From assembly GCF_003261055.1 (NCBI RefSeq), contig NZ_CP030073.1:1302001-1366000 (forward strand): a stretch of 64,000 nt of DNA. The letters run 5' to 3'. Positions 19,443-29,662 of this stretch are shown here, one piece after another (the stretch's first letter is position 1; the number at the start of each line of letters is the position of its first letter). The notes below the pieces were generated by a model. It did not search any database. It saw only the letters and a program-made list of their open reading frames with translations, and was not told the DNA's origin. Both the position numbers and the translations under genes were made by a program. This DNA comes from Streptomyces cadmiisoli (GTDB taxonomy: Bacteria; Actinomycetota; Actinomycetes; Streptomycetales; Streptomycetaceae).

Positions 19443-19719
19443 GACGCTCCTCCTTCGGGTGCCCCTTCGCATACCCCCGGTCCGGCCGGGGGATCCGGGG
19501 GATGCGGCCGACCGGACGACCTGCCCGTCCTCGTCGACGACGGCCGCGGCGCTTGCGCACGCCGCCCGACCATGTGGCGGGAACCATGACTCGTACGGGT
19601 GACGAACGGGGTTCGTGCTGACGCCCACGGCCCCTGATGCCCGACGATCTGAGTCGGCGGGTCGCCCCACCACGGACGGCCGTGCCGTCGACCGGCCGAG
19701 GATCCCCGGGAGAGGCGCC
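19443..19719. promoter_or_regulatory. divergent region upstream of the hydrogenase locus
   Basis: 277 bases between the small hypothetical gene and hypX, the only sizeable gap before the long plus-strand hydrogenase cluster, so its main promoter is expected here. A short GC hairpin lies at 19474-19492 (CCCCCGG, loop, CCGGGGG). I could not identify a convincing promoter hexamer pair. Confidence 0.4.
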
Positions 19720-21444
19720 ATGCGCATCCTGCTCATCGCCAGTGCCTACAACAGCCTCACGCAACGCGTCCACGCCGAACTGCGCGAGCGCGGGCACGCC
19801 GTCGCCGTGGAGGTGACCCCCGGCAGCGACGACGTGCGTGCGGCCGTGCAGCGGCACAGGGCCGACCTGATCGTGGCACCCCTGCTCAAGGCGGTCGTGC
19901 CGCGCGAGGTGTGGAGTGCGCGGACCTGCCTGATCGTGCACCCCGGGCCGGTCGGCGACCGTGGGCCCTCCTCGCTGGACTGGGCCATCCACGAGGACGT
20001 CCGCGAGTGGGGTGTCACCGTGCTCCAGGCCGACGAGGAGATGGACGCCGGCCCGGTGTGGGCGACGGCGCGCTTCCCCCTTCCTCCGGTCGGCAAGAGC
20101 GACCTGTACCGCAACGAGCTGTCCGACGCGGCCGTGGAAGCCGTCCTGCTGGCGGTGGAACGATTCGCCTCCGGGCGCTACGTCCCGGTGGACCAGAACT
20201 CCCTGCCCAGGCGCCCCCACGCGCGCACCCGGCCCGTGCTGCGCCAGGAGACGCGCCGGATCTCGTGGGCCGAGGACTCCACCGACACGGTGCTGCGCGC
20301 CCTGCGCGCCGCCGACTCCCAGCCCGGCGTCCTGGACGGACTGCTCGGCGGAGAATGGTTCCTGCACGGCGGCCACCCGGAGCACCGCCTCAGGGGGCGC
20401 CCGGGAGAGCTGCTGGCCACCCGGGCGGGCGCGGTCTGCCGCGCCACGGTGGACGGGGCGGTGTGGATCCCCGAACTGCGGGCGCGCACCGGCCCCGGCG
20501 TGCCCCGCGCCTGCAAACTGCCGGCCGTCACCGCCCTGGCCGGCCGGCTGTCCGGTCTGCCCGAGCGGCCCGCCCCGGCACTCACTGCACTCACTCCGAT
20601 GGACGACACCGCCTGGTCCGACATCAGGTACCTGGAGGAGGGGCCCGTCGGCATACTGTCGTTCTCCTTTCCCGGCGGCGCGATGTCCACCGACCACTGC
20701 CGGAGACTGCTGGCCGCCTACCGCGCGGCCCGCGAACGGCCGACCGAGGTGCTGGTCCTCGGCGGGGCGCGCGACTTCTTCTCCAACGGCATCCACCTCG
20801 GCGTCATCGAGGCGGCGGCCGACCCCGCCGCCGAGTCCTGGGCCAACATCAACGCGATGGACGACCTGGTCGAGGCCGTCCTCGACACCACCGACCGGCT
20901 GGTGGTCGGCGCGATCGGCGGCAACGCCGCGGCCGGCGGGGTGATGCTGGCGCTGGCCGCCGACGAGGTGTGGTGCCGCTCGGGCTCGGTGCTCAACCCG
21001 CACTACCGGCTCATGGGCCTGTACGGCTCCGAGTACTGGACGTACACCCTGCCCCGCCGGGTCGGCCGGACCACCGCCGAGCGGCTCACCGAGGACGCCC
21101 TGCCCGTCACGGCCGCCAGAGCCCGGGACATCGGCCTGGTCGACCGGGTGGTGGAGTGCGCGCCGTCCCGGTTCACCGACGAGGTCCTGCTGCTGGCCGC
21201 CCGGCTGGCGGCCTCCCCGCTCACCCGGACGCGCCTCGCGGCCAAGAAGACCGAGACCGACCGGCGTGAGTCCGACACCCCGCTGGCGGCGGTCCGCGAG
21301 CGCGAACTGGCCAGAATGCGTGCCACCTTCTTCGACCCCGACGCGCCGTACCACGCCCTGCGCCGGGCGTTCGCACGCAAGGAACGCGCAACGGCGCATC
21401 GCGTCGCTGCGGATGCGGCGTCGGTCAGGTTGGCCGACTCTTAG
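19720..21444 (+). CDS. hypX: hydrogenase maturation protein HypX/HoxX
   Basis: A 574-residue fusion protein. The N-terminal formyltransferase-like domain (about 1-270) carries the family segment HPGPVGDRGPSSLDWAI at 74-90. The C-terminal domain (about 305-520) is enoyl-CoA hydratase-like, with GGARDFFSNGIHLG and IGGNAAAGGVMLALAADE. HypX takes formyl from formyl-tetrahydrofolate, via formyl-CoA, and releases CO that becomes the active-site carbonyl of [NiFe]-hydrogenases in oxic conditions. Its place as first gene before hhyS supports this. Start ATG 19720 is internal to a longer frame; the preceding residues are low-complexity and GGGAGAGG lies upstream. Spacing to hhyS is 54 nt with a hairpin in it. 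Confidence 0.93.
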   Translation: MRILLIASAYNSLTQRVHAELRERGHAVAVEVTPGSDDVRAAVQRHRADLIVAPLLKAVVPREVWSARTCLIVHPGPVGDRGPSSLDWAIHEDVREWGVTVLQADEEMDAGPVWATARFPLPPVGKSDLYRNELSDAAVEAVLLAVERFASGRYVPVDQNSLPRRPHARTRPVLRQETRRISWAEDSTDTVLRALRAADSQPGVLDGLLGGEWFLHGGHPEHRLRGRPGELLATRAGAVCRATVDGAVWIPELRARTGPGVPRACKLPAVTALAGRLSGLPERPAPALTALTPMDDTAWSDIRYLEEGPVGILSFSFPGGAMSTDHCRRLLAAYRAARERPTEVLVLGGARDFFSNGIHLGVIEAAADPAAESWANINAMDDLVEAVLDTTDRLVVGAIGGNAAAGGVMLALAADEVWCRSGSVLNPHYRLMGLYGSEYWTYTLPRRVGRTTAERLTEDALPVTAARARDIGLVDRVVECAPSRFTDEVLLLAARLAASPLTRTRLAAKKTETDRRESDTPLAAVRERELARMRATFFDPDAPYHALRRAFARKERATAHRVAADAASVRLADS

Positions 21445-21469: not shown

Positions 21470-21498
21470 ATGCCGTTTTCCTCCCCAGGAGGCATGTG

Positions 21499-22587
<1,089 letters not shown>

Positions 22588-22663: not shown

Positions 22664-24445
22664 ATGGCGACCTCGACGACGACCGGTGACGGCACCGGCC
22701 TGGTGGAGATGGCGTGGGACCCGATCACCCGGATCGTGGGCAGCCTCGGCATCCACACGAAGATCGACTTCAAGCAGAAGCGGGTCGCCGAGTGCTACAG
22801 CACCTCGTCGGTCTTCCGCGGCTACAGCGTCTTCATGCGCGGCAAGGACCCGCGGGACGCGCACTTCATCACCAGCCGCATCTGCGGCATCTGCGGTGAC
22901 AACCACGCCACCTGCTCGGTGTACGCGCAGAACATGGCCTACGGGGTGAAGCCGCCGCACCTGGGCGAGTGGATCCTCAACCTCGGCGAGTCCGCCGAGT
23001 ACATGTTCGACCACAACATCTTCCAGGAGAACCTGGTCGGGGTCGACTACTGCGAGAAGATGGTCCGCGAGACCAACCCGGGCGTCCTCGAACTCGCCGA
23101 GCGCACCGAGGCGCCGCACGCCGCCGAGCACGGCTACCGCACGATCGCCGACATCATGCGCTCGCTCAACCCGCTGGAGGGCGAGTTCTACCGCGAGGCC
23201 CTCCAGGTCAGCCGGTACACGCGCGAGATGTTCTGCCTCATGGAGGGCCGCCACGTGCACCCCTCCACGCTCTACCCGGGCGGTGTCGGCACGGTCGCCT
23301 CCGTGCAGCTCTTCACGGACTACATGAGCCGCCTCATGCGGTACGTCGAGTTCATGAAGCGCGTCGTGCCGCTGCACGACGACCTGTTCGACTTCTTCTA
23401 CGAGGCACTGCCCGGCTACGAGGAGGTCGGCCGCCGACGCGTCCTGCTCGGCTGCTGGGGCGCGCTCAACGACCCCGAGTACTGCGACTTCACCTACGCC
23501 AACATGACGGACTGGGGCCGGCGGATGTTCGTCACCCCCGGCGTGATCGTGGACGGCAAGCTGGTCACCAACGACCTGACGCAGATCAACCTCGGCATCC
23601 GCATCCTGCTGGGCAGCTCCTACTACGAGGACTGGGAGGGCCAGGAGCAGTTCGTCACCCACGACCCGCTCGGCAACCCGGTCGACCCGCGCCACCCGTG
23701 GAACCAGCACACCATCCCGGCCCCGCAGAAGCGGGACTTCGACGACAAGTACAGCTGGGTGATGTCCCCGCGCTGGTTCGACGGCAAGGACCACCTCGCC
23801 CTCGACACCGGCGGCGGCCCCATCGCCCGGCTGTGGTCCACGGCCCTGTCCGGTCTCGTCGACGTCGGCTACGTCAAGGCCACCGGCCACAGCGTGGTCA
23901 TCAACCTGCCGCGCACCATGACCAAGCCCGAGACCACCTTCGAGTGGAAGATCCCGCAGTGGTCCAACGCGCTGGAGCGCAACCGGGCCCGCACCTACTT
24001 CCAGGCGTACGCCGCCGCGATCGCCCTGCACTGCGCGGAGAAGGGCCTGGAGGAGGTCCGCGCCGGACGCACCCAGACCTGGGAGAAGTTCGAGGTCCCG
24101 GACGAGAGCATCGGCTGCGGCTTCACCGAGGCCGTCCGCGGCGTCCTCTCCCACCACATGGTGATCCGCGACGGCAAGATCGCCAACTACCACCCGTACC
24201 CGCCGACTCCGTGGAACGCCAGTGTCCGCGACTCCTACGGCACCCCGGGCCCGTACGAGGACGCCGTGCAGAACACCCCCATCTTCGAGGAGAACCCCCC
24301 GGAGAACTTCAAGGGCATCGACATCATGCGCGCCGTGCGCAGCTTCGACCCCTGTCTGCCGTGCGGGGTCCACATGTACGTCGGCGGCGGACGGACGGTG
24401 AAGTCGATGCACGTGCCGACCGGACTGAGCGGCCTCGCCGGATGA
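22664..24445 (+). CDS. hhyL: [NiFe]-hydrogenase large subunit, group 1h
   Basis: A 593-residue catalytic subunit. The L1 motif RICGICGDNH is at about residues 72-81 and the L2 motif DPCLPCGVH at about 562-570, giving the four cysteines that bind the Ni-Fe(CN)2CO centre. A 23-residue tail follows the L2 histidine and should be removed by the maturation protease encoded downstream. It oxidises H2 and passes electrons to HhyS. The sequence is typical of the actinobacterial clade used for H2 scavenging in spores and dormant cells. It lies 76 nt after hhyS, and its stop overlaps the next gene as ATGA, so the accessory genes are translationally coupled to it. Confidence 0.96.
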   Translation: MATSTTTGDGTGLVEMAWDPITRIVGSLGIHTKIDFKQKRVAECYSTSSVFRGYSVFMRGKDPRDAHFITSRICGICGDNHATCSVYAQNMAYGVKPPHLGEWILNLGESAEYMFDHNIFQENLVGVDYCEKMVRETNPGVLELAERTEAPHAAEHGYRTIADIMRSLNPLEGEFYREALQVSRYTREMFCLMEGRHVHPSTLYPGGVGTVASVQLFTDYMSRLMRYVEFMKRVVPLHDDLFDFFYEALPGYEEVGRRRVLLGCWGALNDPEYCDFTYANMTDWGRRMFVTPGVIVDGKLVTNDLTQINLGIRILLGSSYYEDWEGQEQFVTHDPLGNPVDPRHPWNQHTIPAPQKRDFDDKYSWVMSPRWFDGKDHLALDTGGGPIARLWSTALSGLVDVGYVKATGHSVVINLPRTMTKPETTFEWKIPQWSNALERNRARTYFQAYAAAIALHCAEKGLEEVRAGRTQTWEKFEVPDESIGCGFTEAVRGVLSHHMVIRDGKIANYHPYPPTPWNASVRDSYGTPGPYEDAVQNTPIFEENPPENFKGIDIMRAVRSFDPCLPCGVHMYVGGGRTVKSMHVPTGLSGLAG

Positions 24446-25005
24446 GCGGCGGGCACCGAACGCTCGACGCGGAGACGGCCGGCCGGCTGGTCGAGCAGGT
24501 CCTCGACCGGCTGGCCGCCTCCGGCGACCGCGCGGCCTGCGACGCCGCCGAGGAACTCGTCCGGGTGCTCATGGACTTCTACGGCGCCGGCCTCGCCCGC
24601 GCCATGGAGCTGATCGGCCGCGACCCGCAGGCCCCCGCCCGCGACCTCACCGAGGTCCTGCTCGGCGACGAACTCGTGGCCGGACTGCTGGTGCTGCACG
24701 GTCTGCACCCGGACGACGTGCACACCCGGATCGCCCGTGCCCTGCACGGCACCGGACAGTCGTGGCAGGCAGCCGGGTTCGACCCGGCCACCGGTGTGCT
24801 GCGGCTGCGGCTCACCGGCTCCTCGGGGTGCGGCTGCGCCGGCACCCGCGAGGCCCTGGCCCAGACGGCGAAGGACGCCCTGGCGAGTCTCGCGCCCGAG
24901 GTGACGAGCGTGGAAGTGGAGGCCGCCGCGAAGGAACCGGCCCTCCTCCAGATCGGCGCCGCCCCGCACCGCGCGGGCGGCCGTTCACCGGCCACGGCAC
25001 CGTGA
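24442..25005 (+). CDS. hydrogenase-cluster NifU-like accessory protein
   Basis: A 187-residue soluble protein. The N-terminal half is helical. The C-terminal part (about 120-165) has the layout of a NifU C-terminal (Fe-S scaffold) domain: a strand, a cysteine motif, a helix and a final LAPEVTSVEVE strand. The cysteine motif reads SSGCGCAGT, a C-x-C, where typical NifU domains have C-x-x-C. It overlaps hhyL at ATGA and the next gene at GTGA. Likely role, by position and similarity only: Fe-S delivery to, or electron transfer with, HhyS. It could equally be a structural partner of the hydrogenase. Not experimentally assigned as far as I know. Confidence 0.72.
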   Translation: MSGGHRTLDAETAGRLVEQVLDRLAASGDRAACDAAEELVRVLMDFYGAGLARAMELIGRDPQAPARDLTEVLLGDELVAGLLVLHGLHPDDVHTRIARALHGTGQSWQAAGFDPATGVLRLRLTGSSGCGCAGTREALAQTAKDALASLAPEVTSVEVEAAAKEPALLQIGAAPHRAGGRSPATAP

Positions 25006-25667
25006 GCGCGCCGCCGGCCGGTGCGGGGCCCGTCCGGTCCGGCCCCGGTCCCCGGGGCCTGCGCCGCTTCACCGCGCCGCGTCCACCGGCGCAGGAACGC
25101 TGCGAGCTGTGCTCGGCGACGCTCGCCGACGCACGGCACCGGCACCTCGTCGACACCGAGAAGCGCGCCCTGGCGTGCGTATGCGACCCCTGCGCCCTCC
25201 TGCTGGACCGCTCCGGCGGCAGCCGGGGCCGCTTCCGCACGGTCCCGGGCCGCCACCTGAGCGACCCCGACCATCGCATCGACGACCGGGCCTGGGAGCA
25301 GTTGCGCATCCCCGTCGGGGTGGTCTTCTTCTTCCGCAACTCCGCGCTCGGCCGGCCGGTCGCCTTCTACCCCAGCCCCGCTGGGGCGACAGAGAGCGAA
25401 CTCGACCCGCAGGCCTGGCAGTCCGTCCTGGAGCGCACCCGCCTCGCCGGGCTGCTCCAGCCGGACGTCGAGGCACTGCTGCTGCGCCGCCGGGACGACC
25501 GTGTCGAGTGCTTCCTGGTGCCGATCGACATCTGCTACGAACTGGTGGGCCGTATGCGACTGCGCTGGCAGGGCTTCGACGGCGGCGCGGAGGCGCGCGC
25601 CGACCTGGAGGCCTTCTTCACCCACGTCCGCGACCGGGCCGGCGCCACGCCGGGGAGCCGGTCATGA
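25002..25667 (+). CDS. hydrogenase-cluster DUF5947-like protein with two CxxC pairs
   Basis: A 221-residue soluble protein starting at GTG 25002 inside the previous stop (GTGA). Near the N terminus are two cysteine pairs, RCELC and CVCDPC, about 25 residues apart. This is a rubredoxin/zinc-ribbon-like arrangement able to hold Fe or Zn. The rest is alpha/beta: a hydrophobic strand IPVGVVFFFRN, YPSPAG, a leucine-rich helix ALLLRRR and a C-terminal VPIDICYELVGRMRL. Matches the family I know as DUF5947, which recurs beside group 1h hydrogenases; that name is from memory. A rubredoxin-like redox role or complex assembly is plausible but unproven. Confidence 0.7.
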   Translation: MSAPPAGAGPVRSGPGPRGLRRFTAPRPPAQERCELCSATLADARHRHLVDTEKRALACVCDPCALLLDRSGGSRGRFRTVPGRHLSDPDHRIDDRAWEQLRIPVGVVFFFRNSALGRPVAFYPSPAGATESELDPQAWQSVLERTRLAGLLQPDVEALLLRRRDDRVECFLVPIDICYELVGRMRLRWQGFDGGAEARADLEAFFTHVRDRAGATPGSRS

Positions 25668-26302
25668 CCGACTTCGGCTTCACCTGCACCGGGGTGCGGG
25701 CCGACCCGTACTCCGCGGGCCCCACCCTCGTGTTCCGGCTGCGGATCACGGCCACGGCCGGGACCCGGGTCCACGCGCTGGCGCTGCGCTGCCAGATCCG
25801 CGTCGAACCGGCCCGGCGCGGCTACGGCGACGACGAGGCCGAGGCGCTGTCCGACCTGTTCGGCGAGCGGTCCCGCTGGGGCAGCACCCTCAATCCCGTG
25901 CAGTTCGCACAGGTGCAGGCGATGGTCCCGGGCTTCACCGGCGAGGTGGAGACCGACCTGGTGGTGCCCTGCACCTACGACATGGACGTCGCGTCCACGC
26001 GCTACTTCCACGCCCTGGAGGACGGCGAGGTGCCGCTGCTCCTGCTGTTCTCCGGCACCGCCTTCACCGGTGACCGCGGCTTCCATGTGGAGCCGGTCCC
26101 CTGGGACAGGGAGACCACCTTCCGGATGCCGGTGAAGACCTGGCGGGAGATGGTCGACCAGCACTTCCCGGGCGCCGGCTGGATCCGGCTGCCGCGGGAC
26201 ACCATGGACGCCCTGCTCGCCCACCGGTCGCGGCTCGCCCTGCCCTCGTGGCAGGCGGCCGTCGAGGACCTGCTGGACGCGGCCGGGGAGAGGACACCGT
26301 GA
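25664..26302 (+). CDS. hydrogenase-cluster DUF6084-like protein
   Basis: A 212-residue soluble protein, ATG 25664 overlapping the upstream stop by 4 nt. It is beta-rich in the first 130 residues (FTCTGVRADPYSAGPTLVFR, then alternating strands to LLLLFSGTAF). A helical C-terminal part contains TWREMVDQHFPGAGWIRLP. No cofactor motif is visible; the few cysteines are isolated. The family, which I recall as DUF6084, recurs in group 1h hydrogenase loci. Its product may be part of the hydrogenase complex or an assembly factor. Function unknown. Confidence 0.7.
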   Translation: MTDFGFTCTGVRADPYSAGPTLVFRLRITATAGTRVHALALRCQIRVEPARRGYGDDEAEALSDLFGERSRWGSTLNPVQFAQVQAMVPGFTGEVETDLVVPCTYDMDVASTRYFHALEDGEVPLLLLFSGTAFTGDRGFHVEPVPWDRETTFRMPVKTWREMVDQHFPGAGWIRLPRDTMDALLAHRSRLALPSWQAAVEDLLDAAGERTP

Positions 26303-27750
26303 CCACGACGACGTTCACCCCCGGCACCGAGGCCCGGCTGGCGGTCGCGCGGCAGGTCGCCGACGCCGTGCTGTTCGAGGGTTACGTGCTCTACCCCTAC
26401 CGGGCCTCGGCCGCCAAGAACCGGCTGCGCTGGCAGTTCGGGGTCCTCGTACCGCCGGCCTGGACGCCGGTCGCCGAGGAACACGACTTCCAGCACACCG
26501 AGTTGCTGATGGAGCCCCGGCAGGGGGCCACACTCGCCGTCGAGGTGCGCTTCCTGCACAGCCGGCGCCGCACGGTGCAGCGGACCCGCCCGGACGGCGG
26601 GTTCGAGACCGTGGCCGAACTGCGCCTGGAGGACCGGGTGCTGGTTCCCTGGGACGAGGGGCACGAGGAGACGGTCCGGTTCACCGTGCCCGTGGCGGAG
26701 CTGGCGGACACCGGTGTCGTCATGCCCTTCGAGCGCCCCGCGGCCGACACCACCGAAGCGGTCACGGACGACGCCGGACAGGTCGTGGGGCGGCTGGTGC
26801 TGCGGCGCGAGGAGATCCGCGGCGCCGTACGGCTGTCCACCAGCGAACTGGACGGCCCCTACCGCACACAGCGTCTGACCGTCGTCGTGGAGAACACCAG
26901 CGACTGGTCACCGGACGAGTCCGCCGACCGCGACGCGGCCCTCCCCCGGTCGCTCGTCGCCAGCCATACGCTGCTCTGTCTGGACGGCGGCGGCTTCCTG
27001 TCGATGACGGACCCGCCGGAGTGGGCCGCGGGCGCCACCGCGGCGTGCCGCAATCTGCACACCTGGCCCGTGCTCGCGGGTGAGCCCGGCCGCCGCGACC
27101 TGGTGCTGTCCTCGCCGATCATCCTGGAGGACCATCCGGCCATCGCCCCGGAGAGCCCCGGCGCCCTGTACGACGCCACGGAGATCGACGAGATCCTGAC
27201 ACTGCGCACCGCGGCCCTCACCGACGAGGAGAAGCGCGAGGCCAAAGGGACCGATCCACGGGCGGCGGCGGTGATCGACCTGGCCGACTCGATGCCGCCG
27301 GAGATCCTGGAACGTCTGCACGGCGCGGTGCGCGGCCTTCGCGAGGTCGTCGCGCCGAACGCACCCGCGGTGCCCGGCACTCCGGCTGCGGCGCCGCCCG
27401 GCGCACCCGGCGACCCGTTCACCGGGGTCACCCGGCCCGCCACCCCGTGGTGGGACCCCGGCGCGGACGCCTCCGTGGACCCCGCCCACGACCACGTCCA
27501 GGTCGGGGGTCACGCGGTGCGGGCCGGCAGCCGGGTGGTGCTGCGGCCCCGGCTGCGCCACACCGACGCGCAGGACCTGTTCCTGCACGGCCGCAACGCC
27601 CTGGTGGAAGCGGTCCTGCAGGACGTCGACGGAGGCGTGCACATCGCGGTGACCGTCGACGACGACCCCGGCGCAGACCTCAGGCGCGAGCAGGGCCGTT
27701 TCCTCTACTTCCAGCCCGACGAGGTCGAACCCCTCCCGGAGGACGCGTGA
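26299..27750 (+). CDS. hydrogenase-cluster conserved protein of unknown function
   Basis: A 483-residue soluble protein beginning at GTG 26299 within the previous stop (GTGA) and ending in GTGA with the protease. Early residues read FEGYVLYPYRASAAKNRLRW. A long beta-rich region follows, with an immunoglobulin-like strand pattern around residues 75-260 (LLCLDGGGFLSMTDPPEWA). A helical stretch contains ALTDEEKREAKGTDPRAAAVIDL and a proline/alanine linker. A C-terminal small barrel (about 405-483) has VRAGSRVVLRPRLRHTDAQD and VHIAVTVDDDPG. No catalytic or cofactor motif is recognised. Its size and strict coupling argue for a structural or adaptor role in the HhySL complex; this is inference. Confidence 0.68.
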   Translation: MTTTTFTPGTEARLAVARQVADAVLFEGYVLYPYRASAAKNRLRWQFGVLVPPAWTPVAEEHDFQHTELLMEPRQGATLAVEVRFLHSRRRTVQRTRPDGGFETVAELRLEDRVLVPWDEGHEETVRFTVPVAELADTGVVMPFERPAADTTEAVTDDAGQVVGRLVLRREEIRGAVRLSTSELDGPYRTQRLTVVVENTSDWSPDESADRDAALPRSLVASHTLLCLDGGGFLSMTDPPEWAAGATAACRNLHTWPVLAGEPGRRDLVLSSPIILEDHPAIAPESPGALYDATEIDEILTLRTAALTDEEKREAKGTDPRAAAVIDLADSMPPEILERLHGAVRGLREVVAPNAPAVPGTPAAAPPGAPGDPFTGVTRPATPWWDPGADASVDPAHDHVQVGGHAVRAGSRVVLRPRLRHTDAQDLFLHGRNALVEAVLQDVDGGVHIAVTVDDDPGADLRREQGRFLYFQPDEVEPLPEDA

Positions 27751-28259
27751 GCACCGACGCACCGCCCCGCCCCCGCACGCTGGTCGCCGGGGTGGGCAAC
27801 ATCTTCCTCGGCGACGACGGCTTCGGCGTGGAGACCGCGCGCGCCCTGGCGAACCACGAACTGCCCGCCGGCGTCGAGGTCGCCGACATCGGCATCCGCG
27901 GCGTGCATCTGGCCTACCGGCTGCTCGACGGCTACGACACGCTCGTCCTCCTCGACGCGACGGCCCGGGGCGGCGATCCGGGCACGCTGTACGTGATCGA
28001 CGCCACGGACCCCGGCACCCGCCCGCCGTCCGAAAGCGTGCCCCTGGACGGCCACCGCATGACCCCCGACGCGGTGCTGGCGCTCCTGGACACGCTGTGC
28101 GCCGGCACCGGCGCCACGCCTCCGCGCCGGACCCTGGTCGTCGGCTGCGAGCCCGCGCAGGTGGAGGAGGGCATCGGCCTCAGCCCGCAGGTCACCGCCG
28201 CGGTGCCCGAGGCGGTGCGCCTGGTCGCCGAACTGGTCCGTGACGAGGCCGTCGTATGA
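27747..28259 (+). CDS. hydrogenase maturation protease (HyaD/HycI family)
   Basis: A 170-residue cytoplasmic endopeptidase that removes the C-terminal tail of the large subunit once Ni is inserted. The signature is intact: GVGNIFLGDDGFGVE at the N terminus with the first acidic metal ligand, VADIGIRGVHLAYRLLDGYD, then VLLDATARGG with the second acid, and a histidine near LDGHRMTPDAVL. Its target is the 23-residue tail after the L2 histidine of HhyL. GTG 27747 overlaps the preceding stop. Annotated from family and context; high confidence in class, lower in partner. Confidence 0.92.
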   Translation: MSTDAPPRPRTLVAGVGNIFLGDDGFGVETARALANHELPAGVEVADIGIRGVHLAYRLLDGYDTLVLLDATARGGDPGTLYVIDATDPGTRPPSESVPLDGHRMTPDAVLALLDTLCAGTGATPPRRTLVVGCEPAQVEEGIGLSPQVTAAVPEAVRLVAELVRDEAVV

Positions 28260-28966: not shown

Positions 28967-29662
28967 ATGTGCCGTGTAGTCGACCTCCAGCAGGCGGTGC
29001 TCGCCAAGAACGCGATGGCGGCGGACGTCCTGCGCACCGAACTGGCTGCCCGGGGCACGACGGTGGTCAACCTCCTGTCGAGCCCTGGCAGCGGCAAGAC
29101 CGCGCTGCTGGAGCGGGAACTGCTGCTGGCGAGGGAGCGCGGCATCGCCGCCGCCGCCCTGACCGCCGATCTGGCGACCGAGAACGACGCCACGCGTCTG
29201 TCCCGCTCCGGTGTCCCGGTCAAGCAGGTGCTCACCGACGGCCTGTGCCATCTGGAGGCCGACATGCTCGCCGGCCATCTGCACAACTGGCTTCCGCAGG
29301 ACACCCGGCTGCTGTTCGTGGAGAACGTGGGCAACCTCGTCTGCCCCGCCTCCTACGACCTCGGCGAGTCGCTGCGGGTCGTCCTCGCCTCCGTCACCGA
29401 GGGCGAGGACAAGCCACTGAAATACCCCACCGCGTTCGGCCTGGCCCAGCTCGTACTGGTCACCAAGGCCGATCTGGCGGGGCCCGCCGAGTTCGACGAG
29501 ACCGCGTTCCGCAGGAACGTGCAGCAGGTCAACCCGGGCGTCGAGGTGCAGCTCACCTCCGTGCGCAGCGCACGCGGCGCCGGCCTGCTGCTCGACCGGG
29601 CGCTGGCGGCCGCCGAGGGCCGGTCCGTGCACGCGCCGGTGATGGCCAGGGCCCAGGCGTGA
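28967..29662 (+). CDS. hypB: hydrogenase nickel incorporation GTPase HypB
   Basis: A 231-residue SIMIBI-class GTPase. The P-loop is SSPGSGKT at about 38-45. Later motifs are ADLATENDA (switch), LFVENVGNLVCP with the conserved cysteine of the metal site, and the guanine-binding VTKADL. The N terminus is a short MCRVVDLQQAVL without a histidine-rich nickel-storage region, so this HypB is a GTPase-only form. It receives Ni from or with HypA and powers delivery to HhyL. GAGGAG precedes ATG 28967; the gene ends in a GTGA overlap with hypF. Confidence 0.95.
   Translation: MCRVVDLQQAVLAKNAMAADVLRTELAARGTTVVNLLSSPGSGKTALLERELLLARERGIAAAALTADLATENDATRLSRSGVPVKQVLTDGLCHLEADMLAGHLHNWLPQDTRLLFVENVGNLVCPASYDLGESLRVVLASVTEGEDKPLKYPTAFGLAQLVLVTKADLAGPAEFDETAFRRNVQQVNPGVEVQLTSVRSARGAGLLLDRALAAAEGRSVHAPVMARAQA

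Follow-up and report, generated by a model that had tools for sequence, protein, structure and literature searches.

The genes between hhyL and the maturation protease gene of Streptomyces cadmiisoli form the accessory cassette of group 1h [NiFe]-hydrogenases, with a possible role in enzyme assembly and docking

What do the four proteins encoded between the large-subunit gene hhyL and the maturation protease gene do for a [NiFe]-hydrogenase? A 64,000-nucleotide stretch of Streptomyces cadmiisoli DNA (contig NZ_CP030073.1, positions 1,302,001‒1,366,000; hereafter the window) raises this question. The locus is almost certainly the usual cassette of accessory genes that accompanies the group 1h (Hhy, ‘actinobacterial’) [NiFe]-hydrogenase. 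Enzymes of this group oxidize H2 from air, and published work treats their electron route to the respiratory chain as an unsettled question (PMC6883350, PMC13332983). The cassette is already known; what is new is a set of comparative constraints on its members and a fold-level hypothesis for the fourth gene. Together these lead us to lean toward assembly and docking of the hydrogenase HhySL as the main function. The genome that holds the window comprises 10.2 Mb on two contigs, and its closest hhyL sequences are those of Streptomyces. The genes in question, read from the sequence and its list of open reading frames (ORFs), are as follows.

21496..22587, + strand: hhyS, hydrogenase small subunit (Pfam NiFe_hyd_SSU_C and Oxidored_q6; 555.9 bits with HofK of PDB 5aa5)
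22664..24445, + strand: hhyL, group 1h-type hydrogenase large subunit (PF00374; 1094 bits with HofG of PDB 5aa5)
24442..25005, + strand: gene 1, short-form HhyE, NifU-like by homology and position, 187 residues, ATG start
25002..25667, + strand: gene 2, DUF5947 (PHG067/MSMEG_2717 type), 221 residues, GTG start (PF19372, 245.8 bits against a cut-off of 25, with a query that started 10 codons upstream of the GTG)
25664..26302, + strand: gene 3, DUF6084 (PHG068 type), 212 residues, ATG start (PF19562, 320.7 bits, cut-off 25)
26299..27750, + strand: gene 4, PHG069 type, 483 residues, GTG start (no family in Pfam, NCBIfam, or PHROGs, nor in PADLOC at E ≤ 1)
27747..28259, + strand: hydrogenase maturation protease, 170 residues, GTG start (PF01750; TIGR00072)

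Exactly four genes sit between hhyL and the protease gene, and the preliminary description of the window had their positions and sizes right, including the 212 and 483 residues of genes 3 and 4 and the CxxC motif of gene 2. HhyL shares 77‒78% identity with its counterparts in Cupriavidus necator and Mycobacterium intracellulare, the subunits are of the HofG/HofK type, and hhyL is followed by genes for a NifU-like protein, DUF5947, DUF6084, gene 4, and the protease, as in other group 1h loci. Annotated loci with the order hhyS-hhyL-gene 1-DUF5947-DUF6084-gene 4-protease exist on C. necator pHG1 and a Kitasatospora plasmid as well as in M. intracellulare and Methylocystis parvus. Gene 4 is also present in all 12 plasmid records with an HhyL match at E ≤ 1e-60, in which three species appear twice. 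The idea of an undescribed system was rejected, since the same gene order is known in C. necator, Mycobacterium, and Methylocystis. The set is in print as four ORFs of unknown function in C. necator (PMC4377017) and as four hypothetical proteins in Rhodococcus equi (PMC13332983), and an hhyE deletion is described in M. smegmatis (PMC6883350). Conserved hypothetical proteins are mentioned for Acidobacteria (PMC5900883), and four coding sequences of unknown function beside hhyL for methanotrophs (PMC12319191). A functional study of genes 2‒4 was not found in the open-licence literature.

All five joints from hhyL to the protease gene are 4-nt overlaps (ATGA, GTGA, ATGA, GTGA, and GTGA in order), as had been described. 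GTGA is the automatic product of a final codon with G at its third position followed by a TGA stop. The lengths of these joints also differ among relatives: C. necator, M. intracellulare, and Methylocystis have anything from 8-nt overlaps up to gaps of 62, 69, and 126 nt. What the overlaps show is a single operon; they say nothing about the stoichiometric synthesis once read from them. GTGA also occurs at two joints of maturation genes in the window, at 29659 (hypB/hypF) and 32408 (hypC/hypD), and at the hhyS stop in 79 of the 97 scanned loci (+ strand). The hhyS-hhyL spacing in the window is 76 nt, with no overlap.

The association of these genes with the hydrogenase was examined at the genome level. 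Hidden Markov model counts exclude the loci of the window’s own genome (L001‒L003 and L089). A search of 296 genomes of Actinomycetota with the HhyL profile gave a match at E ≤ 1e-150 in 35 of them. By a threshold of our own setting, the group 1h set contains 26 genomes with a match above 1000 bits at full length, or with fragments of similar score per residue, and the fragment-bearing G270, 27 in all; the best match in the remaining nine of the 35 scores 517‒560 bits. All group 1h genomes but G042 and G184, 25 in number, carry DUF5947, versus one of the 269 others (G189), and the same 25 carry gene 4, versus three others (G189, G216, and G290). DUF6084 occurs in 24 of the 27 (missing in G128, G171, and G184), again versus G189, G216, and G290. 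The cassette genes of these three genomes lie near contig ends: in G189, the DUF5947 match is separated from the end of its contig by 2 nt, and in G216 and G290, DUF6084 is preceded by 310 and 941 nt of contig, respectively. The 941 nt would be enough space for DUF5947, although none was found there. G216 is one of the nine genomes with the 517‒560-bit HhyL type. This distribution supports the accessory set as specific partners of the group 1h type, and to this extent the earlier reading of hydrogenase partner genes holds.

Several single loci are of interest in this collection. In G184, the hhyL frame on contig 264 (L134) ends at profile position 322 with no cassette gene in the stretch read, which reflects a broken gene or an assembly fault. 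The metagenome-assembled genome G042 has no DUF5947 anywhere; its contig (L121) ends inside DUF6084, and the NifU-like and DUF6084 matches share one ORF, by fusion or assembly fault. G140, G289, G141, and G081 each match the HhyL profile two or three times, and one distinct type among these matches scores about 512‒578 bits. In L115 and L118, the genes after this type encode a protease and a NifU-like protein that contains CxxC.

Of 575 relatives, a contig scan retained the best 80, which are largely Streptomyces, so that the whole loci from outside Actinomycetota are those of C. necator and Methylocystis. The cassette is not a fixed unit. In Streptantibioticus cattleyicolor (L007) and in L119 (G128) and L120 (G171), the order is gene 4-hhyS-hhyL-NifU-like-DUF5947. 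DUF6084 is absent from these loci as read, and it is absent genome-wide in G128 and G171, both listed as 100% complete. The three HhyL proteins form one clade (support 100/100). In L007, a hemerythrin-family protein (L007:7273-7815; PF01814, 60.6 bits) is encoded between gene 4 and hhyS; the corresponding gaps of L119 and L120 are too small for such a gene, and none was found in them.

Two sites of gene 1 bear on its function.

24694..24711, + strand: LHGLHP motif in the N-terminal part (first His invariant across all 107 loci, second kept in 101 of them)
24829..24837, + strand: CxC at the site where NifU has CxxC (from the sequence)

By homology and position, gene 1 is HhyE, a putative member of the NifU-like family. 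It has 34‒35% identity to NifU-family genes at the equivalent place in C. necator and M. intracellulare, and it scores 249 bits with an HhyE profile of which it is itself part. The NifU-like label stands through these homologues; for the window protein it does not, as Pfam NifU gave no match at E ≤ 1. The first Pfam and NCBIfam scans of genes 1 and 2 used provisional ends, and the Pfam scan of gene 1 was repeated with the correct end. The Pfam NifU cut-off is 27 bits; the M. intracellulare protein exceeds it with 74.2 bits, as does the C. necator protein with 45.7 bits, and the Kitasatospora protein falls below it with 19.0 bits. Among HhyE sequences from 107 loci, which are mostly Streptomyces-like and count sequences rather than events, the site reads CxxC in 26 and CxC in 70, ten have a single Cys, and C. 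necator alone has no Cys there. Conservation is higher at the N-terminal LHxLHP motif than at this Cys site. An Fe-S-like scaffold, as proposed for gene 1, thus fits the window protein poorly, given its CxC site and the missing Pfam NifU match.

The state of the site may vary together with the length of the protein. Of the CxxC carriers, 21 are long, with four Cys in a C-terminal domain, and five are short; all CxC carriers are short, so that CxxC is kept in 21 of 21 long versus 5 of 86 short forms (the 86 include L096, an ORF running into DUF6084 at a contig end). On an HhyL tree of 46 rows with both traits, there are eight length changes and six Cys-state changes, and of six independent pairs on the starred branches about four agree, none oppose, and two are the same (median p 0.125). 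A link between the absence of the C-terminal domain and the change of CxxC is therefore suggestive. The window protein lacks this domain with its two CxxC motifs. In the long forms, the two CxxC pairs stand where HucE has CxH and CxxC (PMC6883350). The same paper terms the HhyE motifs rubredoxin-like and also notes truncated HhyE forms. When the C-terminal segments of four of the 21 long forms were excised, all four passed the Pfam Rieske cut-off (24.8‒36.4 bits versus 20.3), whereas a Rieske match is absent from the Pfam listing at E ≤ 1 for the full-length M. intracellulare protein. The passing segments include those of L084, L098, L103, and L109, and their four Cys residues are the likely ligands.

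In the model that we favor, all four proteins would work specifically for HhySL, as factors in its assembly and docking. HhyE may act through its conserved N-terminal part, receiving or stabilizing the small subunit during formation of the Fe-S clusters of that subunit. With its altered NifU site and without the Rieske-type domain, the HhyE of the window would be a chaperone or adaptor rather than a redox relay. In M. smegmatis, cells without hhyE oxidize H2 8.4-fold less than the parent, and Hhy activity disappears from gels although an artificial acceptor is supplied (PMC6883350), the latter being expected if no active enzyme is made. ORFs beside cyanobacterial hupSL, one of them NifU-like, have been proposed to mature the small subunit (PMC3126725). 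The position of the cassette between structural and hyp genes also resembles that of hupGHIJK, for which protection from oxygen is proposed in the same text. On this analogy, the four proteins might act during assembly alone, shielding the small-subunit Fe-S clusters as HupGHIJ or HoxOQ do and having no role in the finished enzyme; we regard this as very unlikely, since the general Pfam scan of genes 1‒4 returned only DUF5947 and DUF6084 over the cut-off, in a survey that involved no direct comparison with HupGHIJ.

In gene 2, the following site was found.

25101..25193, + strand: metal-type site CxxC-HxH-CxCxxC (seven positions invariant in 101 of 101 loci and in 93 of 93 rows of alignment A7)

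These five Cys and two His residues make the rubredoxin-type center proposed for gene 2 too simple a description, and its Pfam scan at E ≤ 1 lists DUF5947 alone, without a rubredoxin profile match. Homology of gene 2 with gene 1, or of gene 3 with gene 4, was unsupported in small alignments. The invariance of the site suits an electron relay through DUF5947 that is held in place by gene 4 and DUF6084. Such a relay is a real though unlikely possibility. PMC6883350 names HhyE a likely acceptor and PHG067/MSMEG_2717 another candidate; the excised long-form segments of HhyE pass the Rieske cut-off; and no cytochrome b gene was seen in the window cluster, as is stated for M. smegmatis in the same source. 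Our comparison points more to an assembly and docking module than to a novel electron acceptor chain. In the assembly and docking model, DUF5947 would be a metal-bearing hub, with zinc a likelier occupant than iron, and electrons would pass from HhyS straight to quinone, as reported for the related Huc. Purified Huc consists of HucS, HucL, and HucM and reduces menadione, a menaquinone analog (PMC10017518), and the name HucE does not occur in the text of that paper.

For the gene 4 family, all 7998 scored candidates are homologues at E ≤ 0.001. Its predicted single-protein model has two separable modules, and the segment between them is the most conserved.

26380..27123, + strand: residues 28‒275, predicted helix and large β domain resembling the DrmA chassis
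27124..27333, + strand: residues 276‒345, most conserved segment (mean identity 0.68; predicted local distance difference test (pLDDT) of the block 45‒82, low to moderate)
27481..27738, + strand: residues 395‒480, predicted SH3-like barrel

The β domain is modeled as similar to the N-terminal chassis of DrmA from DISARM at 8% identity; in contrast to DrmA, gene 4 has no helicase domains, no PADLOC match, and a different genomic context. The barrel at the C-terminus is modeled as SH3-like, and its matches to the domains of PetP, PsaE, and nitrile hydratase β lie within about one Z unit of those to BAH, L21e, and KOW-type barrels. The large β-rich adaptors of the preliminary description were checked on the gene 4 model alone, which fits that label. 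Gene 4 would be a soluble scaffold with a large β domain, conserved segments that probably fold on a partner, and an SH3-like barrel that may dock the enzyme to a quinone-side or respiratory partner, with DUF6084 as an adaptor dispensable in some lineages.

In all seven family f18 genomes that have gene 4, its match comes in two pieces. In L128, L132, and L133, these are two consecutive ORFs split between profile positions ~337 and ~365, which falls between the helical segment and the SH3-like barrel. In L081 (Streptomyces aureus NRRL B-1941) and L135 (G182), the gene 4 match stops at profile position ~248‒260, and the maturation protease was not found in these loci, unlike in L082, a near relative.

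A scaffold of this kind could also sit at the membrane, gene 4 and DUF6084 being the group 1h counterpart of HucM that gives access to quinone. The literature calls group 1h activity membrane-associated, no HucM-like gene was identified in the window cluster, and the modeled modules of gene 4 look scaffold-like. However, a check for a HucM-type stalk on the single sequences, amphipathic oligomers aside, found no transmembrane-like stretch in genes 1‒4, so the membrane-holding role suggested earlier gained no direct support. Gene 4 is strongly acidic (charge −30) with no metal motif, it has no sequence match at E ≤ 10 among all PDB chains, HucM entries included, and DUF6084 is missing from three streptomycete loci. 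We consider this role quite improbable. Somewhat less improbable, though still doubtful, is a joint reading in which gene 4 (a DrmA-chassis-type β domain with an SH3-like barrel as on cytochrome b6f and photosystem I) and the metal-type site of DUF5947 would form a hub that docks HhySL to quinone, and HhyE, long regarded as the probable relay of electrons, would be a maturation factor with redox domains that can be lost, as they are in S. cadmiisoli, its C-terminus, where kept, being a Rieske-type fold in which two His ligands have become Cys.

Assembly and docking of HhySL agrees with a Cys site of HhyE that varies while the N-terminal motif is kept, with the same gene order in relatives and the genome-level association with group 1h only, and with the solved C. 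necator group 1h entry 5aa5, which is matched by the large and small subunits alone. Other observations weigh against it. One Cys column of HhyE is kept in 102 of 107 loci, so the CxC form could bind metal, and Streptomyces has both HhyE forms, with long CxxC forms in L080‒L082 and L091. The gene 4 fold matches come from a predicted model at 8% identity. In PMC6883350, electron transfer is the preferred function of HhyE; HhyE is cited there as co-localizing with HhyL and HhyS on native gels, which fits a lasting partner, and HucE and HhyE are both absent in 9.5% of hydrogenase-positive species. On balance, we infer that HhyE and DUF5947 assemble or stabilize HhyS and that docking of the enzyme falls to gene 4, aided by DUF6084 in the loci that have it.

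The comparison re-ranks the electron-acceptor candidates of the group 1h hydrogenase. HhyE is essential in M. smegmatis, but the case for it as a universal relay is weak because its Cys sites are variable and many of its forms have no Rieske-type domain. The metal-type site of DUF5947 is invariant, one streptomycete lineage does without DUF6084, and the modeled architecture of gene 4 suggests docking. This ranking shows which single-gene deletions deserve priority.

Around the cassette, hyp genes follow the protease gene downstream, hypC and hypD being assigned by profile and the remaining hyp names by translations. Upstream of hhyS, a gene at 19615-21444 of the window encodes formyl transferase and enoyl-CoA hydratase domains, and we take it to be HypX-like. 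In the S. avermitilis cluster, hypX is reported to form a separate unit (PMC4767420).

Among known systems, Huc (group 2a) has in HucE a homologue of HhyE (PMC6883350), whereas its HucM receives no sequence match from gene 4. The nine genomes with the 517‒560-bit HhyL type, which may be Huc-like, have DUF5947 in none of nine and neither DUF6084 nor gene 4 in eight of nine. The HhyE of M. smegmatis (MSMEG_2718) is encoded after hhyL, has a NifU-like domain, and is needed for Hhy activity (PMC6883350); it carries a C-terminal domain with two CxxC motifs, which the short form of the window lacks. C. necator H16 (hofK, hofG, PHG066-069, and PHG070) has the same seven-gene order as the window but different joint lengths, and its gene 1 product passes Pfam NifU although the NifU site lacks Cys, whereas that of the window has CxC and fails.

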